64,000 nucleotides of DNA from Opitutaceae bacterium (GTDB lineage Bacteria > Verrucomicrobiota > Verrucomicrobiia > Opitutales > Opitutaceae): assembly GCA_030693515.1 (NCBI GenBank), contig JAUYAK010000069.1:1-64000 (forward strand). Direction: 5' to 3'. The notes beneath the pieces were generated by a model that worked only from the letters and a program-made list of their open reading frames with translations, searched no databases and was not told the DNA's origin. The position numbers and the translations under genes are program-made. How positions within the stretch are numbered: position 1 is the first letter of the stretch; every line of letters starts with the position of its first letter. Shown here piece after piece: positions 8,354 to 58,599 of the stretch.

Positions 8354-9163
8354 ATGAAATTCGGCATCTGCAACGAGATTTTCAAGGGCTGGAAGATCGA
8401 CGACGTGTTCGCGCACTGCGCACGGCTGGGCTACGACGCGGTCGAGGTCGCGCCGTTCACGCTGGCGAAACACGTCGGCGAGATCCCTGCGGCCGAGCGC
8501 GTCCGCATCCGCGAGGCGGCGGCGCGCGCGGGCATCGCCATCTCGGGCATCCACTGGGTGCTGGTGCAGGCGGAGGGCATGTATGTGACCTCACCGGATC
8601 CGGCGACGCGGGCGCGCACGGCGGACTATTTTTGCGAGCTCGCGGATTTCTGCGCCGATATTGGCGGCCGGACCATCGTGGTGGGTTCACCGAAGCAGCG
8701 GAGCCTGCTGCCGGGTGTGACGCACGCGCAGGCGTGGGCCTGGGCGACGGAGGTGTTTCGCGCCTCGGTGCGAACGGCCGAGGCGCGCGGTGTCACGATT
8801 TGCTTCGAGCCGCTGCCGGCGGAGGACACGGACTTCGTCAACACGGCCGCCGACGCGATCACGTTTGCGCGCGGGCTTGGCTCGCCGAATTTCAAGGTGA
8901 TCCTCGATGTGCGCGCGATGAGCCACGAAGGGAAACCCATCGCCGAGATCATCCGTGCGAGCCGCGGCGAGTTTGCCTACGTGCATGCGAACGACGCCAA
9001 CATGAAGGGCCCCGGTTTCGGCGACACCGATTTTGTGCCGATTGCCGCGGCGCTCCGCGAGGTTGGCTACGACGGGATGGTTTCCGTCGAGGTGTTCAAG
9101 TTCGATGAAGGCCCCGAGGTGATTGCGGCGCGTAGCCTGGAGTATCTGCGGATGGTGTTCCAG
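8354..9163 (+). CDS. Sugar phosphate isomerase/epimerase, stop codon apparently lost
   Basis: A TIM-barrel isomerase of the COG1082 type begins MKFGICNEIFKGWKIDD at the ATG at 8354. It has FEPLPAEDTDF, ILDVRAMSHE, YVHANDANMKGPG and VSVEVFKFDEGPE, the usual metal-binding strands. The recognisable protein ends with SLEYLRMVFQ at residue 270 (9161-9163), the usual family length. There is no stop there: codon 271 is TTG, inside the left arm of a 24-bp inverted repeat whose other arm predicts TAG at that spot. The frame then stays open to 11059, antisense to the FAD oxidoreductase gene. I list only the conserved part. A real C-terminal extension or a sequencing error are the alternatives. Confidence 0.85.
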
Positions 9164-9226
9164 TTGGGGCGCAGTCTTGCTGCGCCTGGATGGCGGTTGA
9201 AGGGCGCAGCAAGACTGCGCCCCTAC
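9163..9226. repeat. 24-bp inverted repeat, GTAGGG family, with one arm mutated
   Basis: Arms 9163-9186 and 9203-9226 pair at 23 of 24 positions around a 16-bp loop. The only mismatch is 9165 (T) against 9224 (T). An A at 9165 would restore GTAGGGG and create an in-frame TAG for the upstream isomerase. The repeat lies between the convergent isomerase and FAD oxidoreductase genes and could also act as a bidirectional terminator. Confidence 0.9.
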
Positions 9227-9235
9227 GCTATGCCA

Positions 9236-10927
9236 TTACCACGCGAGCGGAATTCCGCTCGCGATGAGCTGGGCTTGGTAGTCGGCGAGGAGTCCGGGCT
9301 TCGCGCGCACAGCGCGGGGCGGCTCCTTGCGGGTTTGGCAAAAGGCCGCGAGCTCGCCGACAGCCTCGCCGATGTTCCACTCCACGGGATGCAGGCGGTA
9401 GCAGCCGTTGGTGAGATGCGTGACGCCGAGATTTTTGCAGGCGGGCAGGAGGTTCTCGACGCGCCGCGGAATCAGCGCGCCGAGCGGGATCTGAAACGGC
9501 CGCGCGGGGAAATCGATGTAGTTGTCACCGCCGCTGCTCGGGTGGAGGTCGATGGCGTAGTGGCCGATGCCGACCGAGTCCGGGAACTGCTCCGCGGTGA
9601 CGGTGGCGGCCGGCTGGCCGGTGATTTTCGCGCGGGCCTCCGTGCCCACGTGATTCTCGGTCACGGTGAACTCGGCGCGGATGCGGCGGCTCTCGCGCAC
9701 GTAGGGATACTTGGCGAGGCCGTCCTCGGTGCCGACGATGTCGGGGCGAAGGCGCAGGCCTTTCCAGCCCGTGCCGCCGTCGGGCCGCGGGCATTCGGTC
9801 TGGAGCCAATAGAGCCACGACAGGCTGAGCTGCTTGGCGGCGGCGATGTGGCGCGCGGCCTCGTCGGGCGGGACCTCGCAGAGGTTGCCGAGCATGTAGT
9901 CATTCTGCGGCCAGTTCACGAGCGTGACATCGCCGCGGTAGGTGCCGGGAGCGAAGTTCGAGCGATCGACGATGCGGCGGTATTTGAAAAGCCCCGTGCC
10001 CTTCGCCGGATCAAAGCCGTAGTTGAAGGGCTTCAGGGTGCGCGGCTGAGAGTAGAAAAGGTCCAGCAGCTTGCCCGGCCAGGGCGGGTTGAGCTGCGGC
10101 ACATGGTCGCGCCAGAACATCCAGTCGCGCGGCCGCTCGATCGTGTGATCCTCGCCCGCGAGGTAATCCATCGCGAAGCAGCACGTGAACGCCTGGTGGT
10201 TGTGCGGCTGCGCCTCGACCGGGGCGCGCTCCTCGCCGGTGTCGCGGCGCGATTCGTAGCCGATGACATATTCCGTCTTCGTGAGCGGCAGAAGATCGCC
10301 GAACTCGGTGGCGTCGATGAAAAGTGGGGCGCGGAGCACAAGCTCGCCGCCAGTTTCAGCGTTGCGCACGAGGATGGCGTTGACGCGATCGGAGGTCACT
10401 TGGGCCGAGAGCGCCGTATGGCGCTGGAGAATCCGCACACGACCGCCGGCGACAAAGGGCGCGAGCATCTCCTCCAGCACGGCGAGCGCGACGCGCGGTT
10501 CGTGGCAGAGCTTCGAGACACTGCCGTTGCCGGGGTTGAGCAGCGGGTTCGCCCGCGCGGCGGCGGTGAGCGGGAAATTGCGCGCGTAGTAGTCGCGCAC
10601 GCGGCGGCGGAATTCCTGGTAGCTGCGCGTGGCGCCGGTGGTCTCGACGAGTGCGTTTTCGTCGGGCGGCACGGCCTGCGAGGTGAGCTGCCCGCCGATC
10701 CAGTCGGTCTCCTCGGTCATGATCACCGAGAGGCCGCGCCGCGCGGCCGCGAGCGCCGCGGCGCAGCCGCCGGTGCCGCCACCGATGATCACGAGGTCGG
10801 CGGCGAGTTCTTTGGCCGGTGCCGCGGGTCGCGGCGTGGATGCAGTCTGCGCGTGGAGGAGCGAGGGCGCGGCGAGGGTGGCGGAGGTGAGGAGGCCAGT
10901 TTGCTGGAGAAAAATGCGGCGGTTCAT
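9236..10927 (-). CDS. Exported FAD-dependent oxidoreductase, 563 aa
   Basis: The start ATG at 10927 gives MNRRIFLQQTGLLTSATLAAPSL, a Tat-like or Sec leader. The dinucleotide-binding loop is ADLVIIGGGTGG (GGGTGG at 49-54), followed by the FAD-contacting MTEETDWIGGQLT. It fits the FAD_oxidored (fumarate-reductase/thiazole-like) family common in Verrucomicrobia and Planctomycetes. Near the end, HPVEWNIGEAVGELAAFC is the usual second FAD contact. The substrate is not predictable; polysaccharide-locus neighbours suggest a sugar or sugar acid. It lies 73 bp downstream of the TonB receptor gene on the same strand, separated by a palindrome. Confidence 0.88.
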   Translation of the reverse strand: MNRRIFLQQTGLLTSATLAAPSLLHAQTASTPRPAAPAKELAADLVIIGGGTGGCAAALAAARRGLSVIMTEETDWIGGQLTSQAVPPDENALVETTGATRSYQEFRRRVRDYYARNFPLTAAARANPLLNPGNGSVSKLCHEPRVALAVLEEMLAPFVAGGRVRILQRHTALSAQVTSDRVNAILVRNAETGGELVLRAPLFIDATEFGDLLPLTKTEYVIGYESRRDTGEERAPVEAQPHNHQAFTCCFAMDYLAGEDHTIERPRDWMFWRDHVPQLNPPWPGKLLDLFYSQPRTLKPFNYGFDPAKGTGLFKYRRIVDRSNFAPGTYRGDVTLVNWPQNDYMLGNLCEVPPDEAARHIAAAKQLSLSWLYWLQTECPRPDGGTGWKGLRLRPDIVGTEDGLAKYPYVRESRRIRAEFTVTENHVGTEARAKITGQPAATVTAEQFPDSVGIGHYAIDLHPSSGGDNYIDFPARPFQIPLGALIPRRVENLLPACKNLGVTHLTNGCYRLHPVEWNIGEAVGELAAFCQTRKEPPRAVRAKPGLLADYQAQLIASGIPLAW

Positions 10928-10936
10928 GGGCGGGGT

Positions 10937-10996
10937 GGGCGGGCGCGTCCCTGCGCCCGCGTGGGGAGAAATGCGGGCACAGGGACGTGCCCGCCC
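10937..10996. repeat. GC-rich inverted repeat between the TonB receptor and FAD oxidoreductase genes
   Basis: Arms 10937-10960 and 10973-10996 pair with two mismatches. Each arm is itself nearly palindromic (GGGCGCGTCCCTGCGCCC and GGGCACAGGGACGTGCCC). The differences between arms keep the internal pairing of each arm, a pattern expected if the arms fold on themselves. Confidence 0.8.
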
Positions 10997-11000
10997 ATCT

Positions 11001-14000
11001 TCAATACGCGCCCTTCACCGCAAAGGTCCAGTTGCGGCCGACGAACTCGTTGCGCGTGAGCGCCGTCGGGCCCGAGGCAAAGCGCTGCATGTTCACATAG
11101 GGTGTATCGAGGATGTTGCGGGCGCTGACGGAGAGCGTGTAGCGGTTCGTGAGGCGCCAGCTGCCGCCGGCGTCGACGTTGGTGCGGTGGCGGCGGTAGG
11201 TGGTGCCGGCGATGTTGGTGTTCACGTCGTCGAGCCAGTTCCAGTTGCCGTAAATATTGAAGCGGCCGAGCGACCAATTGAGGCCGCCACTGGCGAGGTG
11301 CGGGGTGAGGTTGGCACGGGGCACCTCGGCATAGACTCGCGTGTAGCTGCCGCGCACGGAGAGGCGCCGGAAGGCTTGCCCGAGGAATGACAGGCTCTGG
11401 CTGTATTCGATCTCCATGCTGCGGATCTTGATCGTGCCGGTGCCGTTGGTCGTGGTGACGAACTCGTAGTTGGCGAGCTCGTCGTTGCCGGTGTAGCGCA
11501 AATTCCTGCGCGGTCTGGCGGTTGGTGATGAAGAGCCTCTTCACGGCGCGCTCCGTAGTCGTCACGGCAAGCAGGCCCACGGGCTCGAAATAGTAGGCCA
11601 GACGCGCGGCGTAGTTGTCGGAGGTCTCCGGAGTCAGGCCCGGGTTGGGGGCGGTGACGGTGGGCAGCGCGCCCGGGGAGTTGGGCGTGTCGTCAATGAG
11701 CCAGACGCCTGAGATGTTGACGTAGCCCGGGCGGCGGATGGTGGAGCTGTAGCCGAGGTGAAGGTCGAGGTTGCGGAGCACGCTGTATTTCAGCGAGGCG
11801 CTGGGAAACAGGTTCTCGTAGTCCGCCTTGCGGTGGATGCGGGGCCGCGAAAGGTATTGGTATTCGATGCCGGGGATCGTGGTGGCCACGCCGGCGGCGG
11901 TCAGCGCGAAGCCCGCCGCACGCACCTCGGCGGGCGAGCGAGGGTTGGCCTCGTTGGCATCGGTGTTCGTCTTTTCCCAGCGCACGCCGGCGCGGGCGGT
12001 GAGGCCGCGCGCGAGGCTGGCGGTGCCCATGAGGTAGCCGGCATCGATGCGCTCGTTGAAACGGCGGCGGCGCGCGACGTAGGATTGGTAGAAGTTGTCG
12101 CTGTTGGCGCCCCAGTTCTGCCGGAAGTCGCCGGGGCGGGCGGCGTAGAGTTCGCGGATGCCGCGCAAGTGGGGCATGAAGACATTGGCGCCCGAGACGG
12201 ACGCGATGGAGCCGTTGTTCATCCCGAGGTCGTATTCCCACGGCGAGCGCTGGTCGGCCCACGCGCCGGTGGTGACGGCCGCACCCCCGCCTGGCGCGTA
12301 GTCGAAGCGCTTGGCGAGCTGGTCGTCCTCGAATTTCTGAGCCTGATCGCGCAGCTTGAGGCCGCTTTTCCAGACGATGGGGCGCCACATGGAGGTCTTG
12401 AGGGTGGCGTTGATGTCGCCGCTGAGGAAGACCGTGCGGCCAAAGCGGCCGTCGTTCACGGTGACGGCGGGACTCGTGAAGCTGGAGCCGCGGGTGATGT
12501 CGTTGCCGGCGACCTGCGTGAACGACCAGTCGGCCGCCATTTCCGAGGAGCGCTGCGCGCGGAAGGTGATGCCGGTGGCCGTGGGCGAGTTCGTGTCGCG
12601 GATTGAGTTGCGGCGGCCGAGGGGGTCATACCAGCTCGTGGAATCGGTGTAGGCGAACTTGCCCTCGATGTCGAAGTTGCCGCGCTTGAACGCGACGCGC
12701 GGCAGCACGGTGAACGTCTCGCCCATCTTGGATACCGCGACCGGATTCACCTGCACCGTGCCGGCCGGGCCGGAGGTGAAGCTGAGCGTGGGACTCGTGC
12801 CGACGACGCCCGCGCGCGCGCCGGCATTGAAGATAACCGTGCGCTGCGGCGTCCAGAGATCGGCGTAGTTGTAGACGACGCCGACGCCGACGTTGAGCTC
12901 GTTGGAGATCTTGTAGTCGGAGGTGAGGGTCGTGGCGAAGCGCTTGTTGAAACGCGGCGCCCACTGGAAATTCAGCGTGGTCGGCACGAGCGGGCGCGAG
13001 TCAGTGGCGGTGGGCGTGGCGTTGTAGCCGAGGGCGGAGATGAGCGCCTCCTGGTAGACGTTGGACTCGCTGACGTTGAGCACGAGGCCGAGGCGCTTGT
13101 TGAGAAACACATCCGAATACTCGATGATCCCGCCCGGCCGTAGCTTGTAGGTGCGCTTGTCCTCATCCGGCCCGAGTGAGCGGCCGAGGTTGAATGCGCT
13201 GCTGTGCGCGGCGAGGGTGGTCTGCCAGGAGACGCGGCGGCCCGCGCGGTCAAACGCGCGCTTCGTGCGCAGGTTGATCGTGCCGGCGGGGGCGTTGGCC
13301 TCCATGTCGGCGCTGATGGTCTTGTTGACCTCGATCGATTCCATCGAATTGAGTGAGGCCATCTCCATCGTGAAGGAGCGCGCGGCGCCGGAGCCGCTGT
13401 TGTTGGCATCGACGCTCGCGAGCGAGACGCCGTCCATCGTGACCGAGGTGTATTCGGCGGGCAGCCCGCCGAGGCTCACGGTGCGCACCTCGCCGTAGTT
13501 GAGGTTGAGCTCGACGCCGGGCAGGTGGCGGAGGAACTCGCCGATGTTGCCCTCGGCGTTGTCGCCGAAAGCATCGGACGCGACGGTGTTGGTCACGTTC
13601 ATGTTGCGCCGCTGGTCCATGATGGCCTTGGCGCTGCCCTCGCGCTCGGAGGAGACGGTGAAGGCGTCGAGCTTCACCGTGCTGCCATCGGCGGCGACGG
13701 CCTGCAGTGTGCTCACGAGATCGAAATTTTTCGTGGCGACGCCGCCGGCCGGCACCTCGACGACCGCGGTCATGGTGCGGTAGCCGGTGTAGGTGACCTC
13801 GAGGGTGACGCGGCCCGGCGCGACCGGGGCAAGGCGGAACACGCCCTCATCCTCCGAGACGGCGCTCTCGCCGGTCTCGACGAGGCGGACGTGGGCGTTG
13901 CGCAGGTATTCGCCGTTCGCGGGATTCAAGACGCGGCCGGTGATGGCGCCGGTCGCGGGCTGGGCGTGGCCCGGCGTGACTGCGAGCACGATGAAAGCGA

Positions 14001-14028
14001 GGATGAGACGCACGAGAGGATTTTTCAT
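11001..14028 (-). CDS. TonB-dependent receptor with a frameshift near the C-terminus
   Basis: This outer-membrane receptor begins MKNPLVRLILAFIVLAVTPGHA at the ATG at 14028. A carboxypeptidase-regulatory-like beta-sandwich follows (TGAITGRVLNPANGEYLRNAHV), then a plug domain (SDAFGDNAEGNIGEFLRHLPGVE, MDGVSLAS, APAGTINLRTK) and a 22-strand-type barrel. The frame breaks at about 11502: upstream it reads NRQTAQEF, and the matching continuation RYTGNDELANYEFV is in another frame down to the terminal WTFAVKGAY at 11001. Removing one A from the AAA at 11500-11502 joins them as a 1008-residue protein. As given, translation runs on to 10924 with nonsense. It faces the repeat lipoprotein gene divergently. 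Confidence 0.9.
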
Positions 14029-14189
14029 GGGGATCGGCTGGGGTGGGGACGGGGCCGCTGAACAGGCGACGAGTGAGTCCACCCACACGGCACGAGGTCA
14101 AGCAGGCGTTGCGCGGACGGTGCAGTGGGCGACGCCGCGAAGCGGCTCCGCGGGTTGCGCTGAAGGGCTGAACGCGATTGCGTGCGGCC

Positions 14190-18090: not shown

Positions 18091-18304
18091 CGTGGCGGCG
18101 GGCGTCCCGGCCCGCCGAGGTTTGACGAAAGTCCTGATACCCACGTCCCTCAGCTTCTGGACCGTAGGGTTTCCGCTGGTCGGAGACCGTCGCGGTTATG
18201 ATCTGCGCCGCGCGACGGCTGGCGACGAGCGCCAGCCCTACAAAAGTCCAAAGGCAAACGGCGATGGGTATGAGCCGGCGGGCCGGGGGGACGCCCACCG
18301 CTAC
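18091..18304. repeat. Nested pair of inverted repeats between the SEC-C and histidine kinase genes
   Basis: The 269-bp gap is mostly repeat. The outer arms (18091-18117 and 18276-18304) pair imperfectly: one carries GGCGGGCGTCCCGGCCCGCC and the other is its near-complement ending CCGCTAC. Inside is a second pair, 18164-18241, that starts GTAGGG and ends CCCTAC with diverged middles. The TAG stop of the histidine kinase (18301-18303, minus strand) lies within the right outer arm. No other gene or promoter signal was recognised in this gap. Confidence 0.6.
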
Positions 18305-20527: not shown

Positions 20528-20588
20528 GTAGGGCCTCAGCTCGCTGAGGCCGTGCTTGGAAAAAGGCCTGAGCAAGCTCAGGCCCTAC
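20528..20588. repeat. GTAGGG-family inverted repeat, 24-bp arms
   Basis: Arms 20528-20551 and 20565-20588 start GTAGGGCCT and end AGGCCCTAC. Each arm is also a palindrome on its own (GGCCTCAGCTCGCTGAGGCC and GGCCTGAGCAAGCTCAGGCC). The three differences between arms keep the outer pairing within each arm. It sits just after the degP stop, before the T-tract terminator. Confidence 0.88.
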
Positions 20589-23824: not shown

Positions 23825-23898
23825 GTAGGGCGGGTCTCTGACCCGCTCTTTCACGCTTTGAGTGTTCGCACCGAGGGCGGGTCAGAGACCCGCCCTAC
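23825..23898. repeat. Perfect 22-bp inverted repeat overlapping a gene end
   Basis: Arms 23825-23846 and 23877-23898 are perfect complements beginning GTAGGGCGGGTCTCTGACC, with a 30-bp loop. The right arm covers the last six codons and the TGA stop of the Rsm22-like gene (minus strand, stop at 23882-23884). It lies between convergent genes and may also terminate both. Confidence 0.92.
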
Positions 23899-38437: not shown

Positions 38438-39685
38438 TTAGCGGACCAGCATGAAGCCGAAGCGCAGCTGATCGCGGCGGCGCACATTGTAGTCGAGCAG
38501 GCTCTCGCCGTAGCCGTTGAAGTATTGCACCTGCAGATAGCCGCCCAGAGCTGCGCGTGGATCGGTGCTCGGCGCTGACAGCCACGACGGCCACGGCAAG
38601 TGCTCGACAGGCAGGGTGAAGTCGAACTCGAGGCTTCCGTGCCCACGTGGGTTGCCGCGCGCGTGGGTCGCAAGCTGCCAGCCCCGATCACGGCCGATGC
38701 GCACGGTCAGCTCAATGTGACCGCGGTAGCGCGCGATGTCGCGGTTGTCCTCGGTATTGAAATAGGCGATCGCGCGTGGCCGGACTTCGAGGAAGTGATC
38801 GCCAGCCATCTCCCAGCGCACGGTCGGCGTGATGTAGAGCGTGTTGAGGCTGCGCGACAGGTTGAGCGGCGAGCCGCCGGCCTTGCCGTTGGACTCGTGC
38901 TGCGCGCCGTATTGCACCGTGATCTCCCGGGTGCCGAGGAGATGGGCGGGCGCGCGATGCAGCAGGAAAATCGTGGGCTTGTAGCTGGTGTCGTAGAAGG
39001 GCTTGGAGACCGAGCTGAGATCCCAGAGCGAAGTCTGCGTGTAGGCGAGGTGCAGCCCTCGGGCAAAGCGATGCAGGGGTGATTCGCGGCCGAGCAGATC
39101 CTCGTCGGGGCGATCCTCGAGGAAGCGGTATTTGAAGCTAAACTGGAACCGCGCGTTGAATCTCCCGCGCCAGCCGATGGCGAAGTAGATGGGATCGTAG
39201 GCCGAGATGTGCCGGCTCACGCCCTCGATGTCGGTGGCGAGATCGAGGTCGGGCGCCGGTGCTAGCCGCGATTTTGCGGGGCTGTCCGGGCTTGGTTCCG
39301 ACGGCCGCAATTCGAACATGATCATGTTGCTGGCCGGGGCCTCGAGGCGCAGTGCCACGAACGGGCCCGGGCCGGCCAGTGGTTGCTTCAGGCGGAGCTC
39401 GATCGTTTTGCGGGTGCGCGCCGGAACCTGCACGAGGCCCAGCTCCGGGCCGGTGGCCTCCAATTGCACCCGCTGCCGGCCCTCGCCCGAGGAACAAATC
39501 GCTGCGATCACCCGCGGCAGCAGGATTTCGTCGGTGAATGAGGTCGGGTTGTTGAGGTAGAGCGTGAAGCGCAGGCCGGCTTCGCCAGCCACGGCTTCGG
39601 CTGGCGGCACGAGCAGCAGATCGATGCGTGCTAACAGGGCGGGCGAGAAGGCGAGGCAAACGAGTGCCAGGACAAACGAGCGCAT
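38438..39685 (-). CDS. pldA: Outer-membrane phospholipase A (OMPLA) with an N-terminal extension, 415 aa
   Basis: A barrel phospholipase that hydrolyses outer-membrane phospholipids. The C-terminal half carries the OMPLA signature: QHESNGKAGG with His263 and Ser265, SRSLNTLY with Asn281, and YFNGYGESLLDYN near the end. It matches the His-Ser-Asn triad, although the Ser-to-Asn spacing is four residues longer than in E. coli. An extra domain of about 140 residues precedes it, after the signal peptide MRSFVLALVCLAFSPALLA; it looks like a beta-sandwich (LRFTLYLNNPTSFTDEILLP). It diverges from the cardiolipin synthase gene, which also acts on phospholipid. Confidence 0.85.
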   Translation of the reverse strand: MRSFVLALVCLAFSPALLARIDLLLVPPAEAVAGEAGLRFTLYLNNPTSFTDEILLPRVIAAICSSGEGRQRVQLEATGPELGLVQVPARTRKTIELRLKQPLAGPGPFVALRLEAPASNMIMFELRPSEPSPDSPAKSRLAPAPDLDLATDIEGVSRHISAYDPIYFAIGWRGRFNARFQFSFKYRFLEDRPDEDLLGRESPLHRFARGLHLAYTQTSLWDLSSVSKPFYDTSYKPTIFLLHRAPAHLLGTREITVQYGAQHESNGKAGGSPLNLSRSLNTLYITPTVRWEMAGDHFLEVRPRAIAYFNTEDNRDIARYRGHIELTVRIGRDRGWQLATHARGNPRGHGSLEFDFTLPVEHLPWPSWLSAPSTDPRAALGGYLQVQYFNGYGESLLDYNVRRRDQLRFGFMLVR

Positions 39686-39786
39686 GATGACGGCAGCGTG
39701 CCGCGGCGGACAAGCTGCGCAATGGCGGAAGCACGCGCGCTTGTCTTCCCCGTCGCAGCCCGGAACCTGTGCACGCAGCCCGCCGC

Positions 39787-41214
39787 ATGAAACTCGCTTT
39801 CCTTCTCAGCTACCTCGCCACGTGGGCGCTTATCCCGCACCTGCTGCTGCTGAAAAAGCGGCCGACCGCCACGCTGGCGTGGCTCTGGGCGATCATATTC
39901 ATCCCGTTTCTCGGCGCGTTCTTCTATTTGCTTGTCGGCACGGATCGTCTGCAACGCCGCCGTCTGCGCCGCCGTCGCAATCTGGTGACGGGTGGCGGCC
40001 GCGAGGGCGCGCCTGAATTGGCGGCCGATCCCGAGGCCTTGGCGCTCGTCGCGGCGCTGCCTGAGCGCGATCGCCAGTTTTTCCGGCTGATTTCGCGCGT
40101 GAACCAGCTGCCGGTTGGCGCCGCGTCGAGCCTCCAGGTTCTGCGTGATGCCGCCGAGTATTATCCGGCGCTTGAGGCGCGCATCCGCGCGGCGCGCCAC
40201 CACATCCATTTTGAGGTTTATATCTGGCAGCCGGATGCGACCGGCGAACGCTTCCTGCGCCTGCTCACGGAGGCGGCGCAACGTGGCGTCATTGTGCGGC
40301 TGCTGATCGACGAGGTGGGGTCCAGCGCGTTTGCGGAGGATGCATTGGCGGACTTCCGCGCGGCGGGCGGAAAATTTTCGTGGTTCCAAAGCCTCGATCC
40401 GCGGCGGAACCGTTTCTTTCTCAACCTGCGCAATCACCGCAAAGTCCAGATTGTCGACGGCGCGGTGGCGTTCGTCGGCGGCATGAACATCGGGCGCGAA
40501 TACGAGGGCCACGACCCCGAACTCGGGCCTTGGCGCGATGTGCAGGTCGAGGCGCAGGGGCCGATCGTTGGCGAACTGCAGGCGGTGTTTGCGGACGACT
40601 GGTTCTTCGCCGCGGGTGAGCGCATCTCGGCCTCGCACTACTACTCGGCGCCGCATGCGCCGGCGCGCTACGCCGCGCAAGTCGTGCTGGGTGGCCCCGA
40701 CCTGCGCTACGGCCCGATTGGAAAATCCCTCGTGAGCGTCTTCAACGAAGCCTCCAAGCGACTCTGGATTGCGACGGGCTACTTTGTCCCCAGCGAGATT
40801 CTCCTCACCGCCATCGCGCTGGCCGCGAGCCGCGGCGTCGATGTGCGGCTGCTGATCTCGGAGCGCAACGATCACCCGTGGCTCGTGCGGGTGGGACGCT
40901 CTTTCTACAGCGAACTGTTTTCGGCGGGCGTGCGCATCTACGAGTATTCGGCCGGGCTGAACCACGCCAAGGTGACGCTCGCCGACGACGATTGGGGCAT
41001 GATTGGCTCCACCAACCTCGACTACCGGTCCCTCCGGCTGAATTTCGAGCTCAACCTGCTCTTCCACTCGCGCGAGGCCAACGCCCGGCTCGCCGACATC
41101 CTTGAGCGCGACTTCGCCGAGGCCCAGGAGATCAAGCCGGCGGAATTTGCGAAGCGGCCGTTCGGGAAAAAATTTATCGAGGCTGCGCTGCGGCCACTGT
41201 CGCCGATTCTGTAA
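39787..41214 (+). CDS. cls: Cardiolipin synthase (phospholipase D type), 475 aa
   Basis: Makes cardiolipin from two phosphatidylglycerols at the inner membrane. The ATG at 39787 is chosen; a GTG at 39769 precedes it in frame. Two N-terminal membrane helices (about 3-24 and 30-51) match the PLDc_N segment. Two HKD motifs follow: NHRKVQIVDG (His217, Lys219, Asp224) and NHAKVTLADD (His393, Lys395, Asp400), each trailed by the expected G-G or G-S-T-N. Length is typical. Confidence 0.94.
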   Translation: MKLAFLLSYLATWALIPHLLLLKKRPTATLAWLWAIIFIPFLGAFFYLLVGTDRLQRRRLRRRRNLVTGGGREGAPELAADPEALALVAALPERDRQFFRLISRVNQLPVGAASSLQVLRDAAEYYPALEARIRAARHHIHFEVYIWQPDATGERFLRLLTEAAQRGVIVRLLIDEVGSSAFAEDALADFRAAGGKFSWFQSLDPRRNRFFLNLRNHRKVQIVDGAVAFVGGMNIGREYEGHDPELGPWRDVQVEAQGPIVGELQAVFADDWFFAAGERISASHYYSAPHAPARYAAQVVLGGPDLRYGPIGKSLVSVFNEASKRLWIATGYFVPSEILLTAIALAASRGVDVRLLISERNDHPWLVRVGRSFYSELFSAGVRIYEYSAGLNHAKVTLADDDWGMIGSTNLDYRSLRLNFELNLLFHSREANARLADILERDFAEAQEIKPAEFAKRPFGKKFIEAALRPLSPIL

Positions 41215-58488: not shown

Positions 58489-58504
58489 CTGAAAAATTTG
58501 ATTA

Positions 58505-58588
58505 AGCGCAAAGGCGCGAAGCCGCTAAGGACGGAGAAAAGAAGGACCGGACTTTGGATCGAACTTTGCGCCTTCGCGCCTTTGCGCT
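58505..58588. repeat. Perfect 17-bp inverted repeat between sufB and sufD
   Basis: Arms 58505-58521 (AGCGCAAAGGCGCGAAG) and 58572-58588 (CTTCGCGCCTTTGCGCT) are exact complements, with a 50-bp loop. The repeat lies between two genes that should be co-transcribed. It belongs to a third family, neither the GTAGGG type nor the CACAGAGG type. Confidence 0.92.
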
Positions 58589-58599
58589 TCACGGCTTGA

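Follow-up and report, generated by a model that had tools for sequence, protein, structure and literature searches.

A GTAG-type REPIN and an apparently lost TAG stop codon at the end of a sugar isomerase-like gene in an Opitutaceae genome

The isomerase locus

The window, a 64,000-nucleotide stretch of Opitutaceae DNA analysed here as a whole, carries on its forward strand a gene for a sugar isomerase/epimerase-like protein, followed by a paired repeat and a convergent oxidoreductase gene (Table 1). The isomerase frame opens with ATG at 8354, and the last of its 270 codons is CAG at 9161-9163. The initial annotation had ended the conserved isomerase sequence there and placed the next codon, TTG, in the left arm of a repeat; on recheck this was exact. 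From codon 271 on, 631 codons stay open before an in-frame stop is met at TGA 11057-11059.

Table 1. Features of the isomerase locus (window coordinates)
Feature	Position	Strand	Basis
Sugar isomerase/epimerase-like TIM-barrel protein, 270 codons to the missing stop	8354..9163	+	PF01261 AP_endonuc_2, E 1.3e-39; orthologues up to 90% identical; Ka/Ks 0.19 to G018
Left REP head of the REPIN	9163..9186	+	Inverted-repeat arm; one mismatch to the genome-wide head
Codon 271, TTG (TAG in G018), part of the REP tetranucleotide (GTTG here)	9164..9166	+	GTAG in 20/22 heads
Open frame after the missing stop, 631 codons, antisense	9164..11056	+	Mirrored GC; no Pfam match; G018 stops in frame
REPIN spacer, 16 nt, 14/16 bases as in G018	9187..9202	.	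Alignment
Right REP head, GTAG intact	9203..9226	-	Inverted-repeat arm; genome-wide head search
Convergent FAD-dependent oxidoreductase	9236..10927	-	PF12831, E 4.4e-99; syntenic in G018

Is the isomerase gene decaying? The nearest relative compared, a genome referred to here as G018, has an isomerase protein 90% identical to this one; there are 84 base differences between the two genes over 807 positions and 28 residue differences over 269, and Ka/Ks (NG86) is 0.19. When the residue differences are polarised by five outgroups, they fall evenly, 12 on this lineage and 12 on that of G018, with 4 unassigned, and neither an indel nor an early stop was found in the comparison with G018. Judged from these substitutions, the coding sequence has been constrained until recently, with no decay visible. 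The same observations speak against the suggestion that the isomerase is now a pseudogene and the loss of its stop one sign of decay in the gene cluster. A frameshifted TonB receptor gene lies two genes away and favours that suggestion, which we consider improbable.

The repeat is a GTAG-type REPIN

The arms at 9163-9186 and 9203-9226 are 24 nt long, lie 16 nt apart and are 96% complementary (23 of 24 positions pair), the sole unpaired position being 9165 (T) against 9224. An inverted-repeat search thus recovered the single-mismatch 24-bp repeat that the initial annotation had described. With up to three mismatches, the 24-nt head occurs twice in the window and in none of 100 shuffles; genome-wide, the arm GTAGGGGCGCAGTCTTGCTGCGCC has 22 copies at the same tolerance in this genome and 22 in G018, and a reversed control pattern has no copy in either. 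The shuffles and the reversed control together indicate that the repeat is not a product of chance.

The 22 heads of this genome are spread over 10 contigs. Their first four letters are GTAG in 20 cases, GCAG in one and GTTG in one, the last being the isomerase copy; in G018, 21 of 22 begin with GTAG. Seven inverted pairs, with starts 34-49 nt apart, account for 14 of the 22. In the right head of the isomerase copy, GTAG is directly followed by an 8-bp stem with a 5-nt loop. Dispersed inverted heads of this kind are the anatomy of GTAG REPs and REPINs, a REPIN being, according to the literature, a miniature element of two inverted GTAG-type heads that is mobilised by a RAYT transposase. Some of the heads follow the end of a long mechanical frame by about 3-12 nt, at sites annotated for genes in part. 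The flanks match those of a G018 copy at 9 of 14 or 15 head sites, the total depending on whether two heads 191 nt apart are taken as one site or two; the family is therefore old in the two genomes. A broader search for hairpins preceded by GTAG was rejected as evidence of enrichment: 12 of 329 GTAG occurrences in the window qualified, and other tetranucleotides behaved alike (GTTG, 17 of 477).

At the RNA level, the REPIN region (9155-9235) has a predicted folding energy of -53.3 kcal/mol, with a z-score of -5.95 against shuffles, and the stop position sits at the foot of the predicted hairpin. A search for intrinsic terminators, that is, a hairpin with a T run, found none in 8900-9600.

Which transposase might move this element? 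There are seven Y1_Tnp matches in this genome. When three of the seven loci were scanned with NCBIfam, REP_Tyr_transpos scored 73.9, 46.9 and 30.1 bits, each below the 80-bit cut-off. The isomerase-type head is absent from the flanks of all seven loci, and thus no cognate RAYT was identified. The flanks contain other GTAG hairpins, repeated at two loci and single at two. One Y1_Tnp match (L146, G000:C70, 18304-21504) is flanked on both sides by GTAGGGCCTGAGCTTGCTCAGGCC, a head that also occurs at window position 20588 (-), and is a possible REPtron of the sister repeat family found there. Around another (L145, G000:C120) there are three copies of a GTAGCGGCGGGCGTCCCTGCCCGCC hairpin. The window also holds inverted GTAG-hairpin pairs with other head sequences, at 20528-20588, 23825-23898 and 18164-18241, and a different kind of inverted repeat at 58504-58589 (26 nt, 92% complementary).

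The stop position in relatives

Where does the isomerase end in other genomes? In G018 the same REPIN lies in the same place, and its GTAG gives the stop, so that the protein ends VF-A-TAG. Two sets of relatives were read. In the genome_contigs set (the best 80 of 110 relatives, from which L117 was dropped, its match ending at residue 219), all 79 loci have a stop in the interval from 1 codon ahead of residue 269 to 13 codons past it. In the other set, 42 of 57 genomes had matches, from which 29 loci were obtained in addition to that of this genome; after removal of two distant paralogues (L036 and L037), the stop lies within 12 codons past the alignment end in all 27, G018 among them. The sets share some genomes and so overlap. 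The initial annotation had pointed to the ends of orthologous genes as a check, and a TTG combined with a long conserved tail was seen in 0 of the 27 loci and 0 of the 79.

The TAG in the REPIN of G018 and the conserved stop position support the proposal, made in the initial annotation, that a single change within the repeat removed the stop. The repeat family, its insertion shared with G018, the TAG there, the conserved position of the stop and the TTG here are seen directly; we infer the direction of the change. Probably, a REPIN was already present where the isomerase ends in the ancestor shared with G018 and held the TAG there, and a T for A at 9165 removes it in the window sequence.

Did the REP bring the ancestral TAG, or did it land on a native stop? 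Near relatives lacking the REPIN also end at this codon, in TAG or TGA, and the TAG could for this reason be the gene's own. L043, with GTAGGAGC at its stop, was considered as a further REP pair and rejected for want of an inverted repeat of at least 12 nt. Were the TAG the native isomerase stop, the REPIN would have merged at a native GTAG and never supplied a new stop, a history with which the later loss is compatible. Some of the relatives without the REPIN do end in G-TAG (L013/L041, L017), as does the closest such relative at a second locus described below; on the other hand, further near relatives have TGA at the isomerase end (L011, L012, L014), and at the second locus the REP's TAG lies beyond the stop of the relatives. 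A native origin of the isomerase TAG is conceivable, though we rate it as somewhat unlikely.

A second REPIN-held stop

The second locus (L169, G000:C42:80892-80915) is at the end of an LpxI-like gene, probably lpxI to judge by its sequence. The TAG stop of this gene is formed by the GTAG of a REPIN head and is intact both in this genome (G000) and in G018. For comparison, the 23 least distant of 30 loci were read. Besides the locus of this genome and that of G018, all 21 lack the REPIN and stop one or two codons earlier. To judge from these positions, the REP does look like the supplier of the TAG. Landing on a native GTAG is also conceivable here, because the stop is likewise G-TAG in G016, which at 90% is the nearest of the relatives lacking the REPIN. 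The orthologue in G013, a candidate for a second stopless gene, was rejected, as the alignment had run over its TGA.

Real mutation or assembly error?

That the isomerase has no stop where the relatives checked have one points either to a mutation of recent date or to a wrong base in the assembly. The T at 9165, known from the assembled sequence, may be an assembly error. If so, the error was perhaps favoured by the strong hairpin, and the living gene ends in TAG like that of G018. The genome is a draft in 130 contigs, and the next gene but one, for the TonB receptor, is frameshifted; both facts favour an error. Against this stands the general condition of the window. The syntenic 80 kb of G018 contain 51 gene-like ORFs, of which 40 are represented in the window by a homologue with 60% identity or more. 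Thirty of these 40 are matched in one frame over 90% with no stop; the isomerase is among them, the absent stop being its sole flag. The remaining ten comprise six with early stops, two that are short N-terminally, one matched in two frames and the TonB receptor. The six early stops were rejected as lesions, as all fall at query residues 8-56 and probably reflect over-extended starts. Three ORFs are covered at 69-86%; two of them lack N-terminal residues only, and the third is the two-frame case at 39050-41214 (+), where the G018 ORF matches at 56% and 89% identity. Either the frame shifts here or the G018 ORF has an over-extended start. Leaving this ambiguous case aside, the isomerase and the TonB receptor are the only clear lesions among the 40.

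The putative TonB-dependent receptor gene, so named from its sequence, lies at 11001-14097 (-). Its frame shifts at about 11480-11500, 2.3 kb from the isomerase lesion, and G018 has one ORF of 1022 codons in its place; the shift is either an error or decay. A further point against an error at 9165 is that the left arm in G018 itself has one mismatch (GGG to GAG), so a single change in a REPIN arm is ordinary.

On the assembled sequence, we lean modestly towards a real T at 9165; an assembly error is a serious possibility, at somewhat less than an even chance. Both an error and a native origin of the TAG are compatible with the main account of the repeat, and the degrees of confidence given here therefore overlap.

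The 631-codon tail

The initial annotation had described the frame as open to 11059 across the antisense of a neighbouring gene. This was borne out, the gene being the oxidoreductase at 9236-10927 (-). GC content by codon position in the tail (0.85/0.53/0.68) mirrors that of the oxidoreductase on the other strand (0.68/0.50/0.87), the isomerase having 0.66/0.47/0.85. The tail has no Pfam match at an E-value of 0.01, and its frame is closed in G018 by stops at codons 138, 296 and 604. By these measures the tail looks like antisense sequence, with no sign of a selected protein.

Might the tail be translated and now form a real C-terminal extension? Among 78 relatives with a measurable run past the stop, none comes up to its 631 open codons (largest 453). 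However, 12 stop-to-stop runs in the window, this tail and real genes included, reach at least 631 codons, and as much open frame or more lies ahead of 4048 of 127799 frame positions (3.2%). Together with the mirrored GC profile, the lack of a Pfam match and the stops in G018, this makes a genuine extension very improbable.

Consequences of the missing stop

We return to the account in which a REPIN held the stop and a base change removed it. What would follow for RNA and protein we infer, on the premise that the base is real. In the ancestor from which both genomes descend, that of the window and G018, the terminal GTAG of the REPIN would have held the TAG stop. The T for A at 9165 would have turned GTAG into GTTG, removing the stop and at the same time altering the tetranucleotide that the transposase recognises; by analogy with known REP systems, the change could affect the mobility of the REP. 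Ribosomes meeting no stop would enter the REPIN hairpin while still elongating. Out of frame, the first stops are at 9198-9200 (+1) and 9265-9267 (-1). The message might end soon after the hairpin, yielding a nonstop mRNA in need of rescue by tmRNA, or translation might run on into the antisense of the convergent gene.

A tmRNA gene is present in this genome (132 bits). It is conceivable, at a long shot, that in this lineage an obligate nonstop message serves as the template for the isomerase, with the hairpin, ahead of which there is no in-frame stop, protecting a 3' end just past 9226 and tmRNA tagging setting how much of the enzyme survives. If this were so, a mobile repeat would have moved a gene from its own stop, to a stop held by the repeat, and then to none.

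A stop codon inside a mobile repeat ties the end of translation to the recognition letters of the repeat, and a single base change can abolish the stop together with the transposase's recognition of the repeat. Should the T be real, the isomerase would be a natural failure of this dependence in a gene whose protein sequence still appears to be under constraint, and would offer a simple test of how a REP hairpin affects ribosomes that arrive without a stop. If it is an error, the locus calls for caution in calling long fusions in draft genomes.

Comparison with known systems

The REPINs of Pseudomonas fluorescens presumably consist, like the element here, of paired inverted REPs. They differ in belonging to another phylum and in having another head sequence (PMC3116915, as far as its available text goes), and no cognate RAYT has been identified for the element here.

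How much does recognition depend on the tetranucleotide? The portion of PMC8266576 at hand reports three different outcomes. The E. coli REP system tolerated no GTAG substitution; in the Stenotrophomonas system, GTAG mutants, GTTG among those tested, were still bound, with cleavage severely reduced; and in the Marinomonas system mutations were largely tolerated.

In E. coli, ribosome stalling is reported for REPs that lie within 15 nt of a stop codon (as cited in PMC12306157, a source available in part). A stable hairpin at the stop codon is common to those REPs and to the isomerase REPIN. The E. coli REPs have a stop before the hairpin, whereas here there is none, and the present case is known from sequence alone. 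Loss of a REP-held stop was not found in the titles and opening lines of abstracts on REP, REPIN/RAYT, ribosome stalling, nonstop mRNA and C-terminal extension; PMC5896051, on MITEs and protein evolution, could bear on the matter.

The closest parallel is found in the GTAG-tagged REPs and REP dimers of PMC3733652 (2013). In the available part of that paper, the termini of GTAG REPs are said often to provide the TAG stop, there termed 'opal', to flanking ORFs, and a high enrichment in GTAG repeats is noted for Opitutus terrae. The elements are alike in the GTAG tag, the short palindromic stem, the inverted pair, the placement between convergent genes and the TAG held at a terminus; the difference is that here the tag of one head is GTTG and the stop is gone. 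The loss of the stop is well observed and correctly read in a setting of known kind, and its interest hinges on the base being real. REP-supplied TAG stops being already known from that paper, to the extent that its text was available, what is new is one case in which the stop is missing, together with a REPIN stop of an LpxI-like gene that is kept in both genomes.
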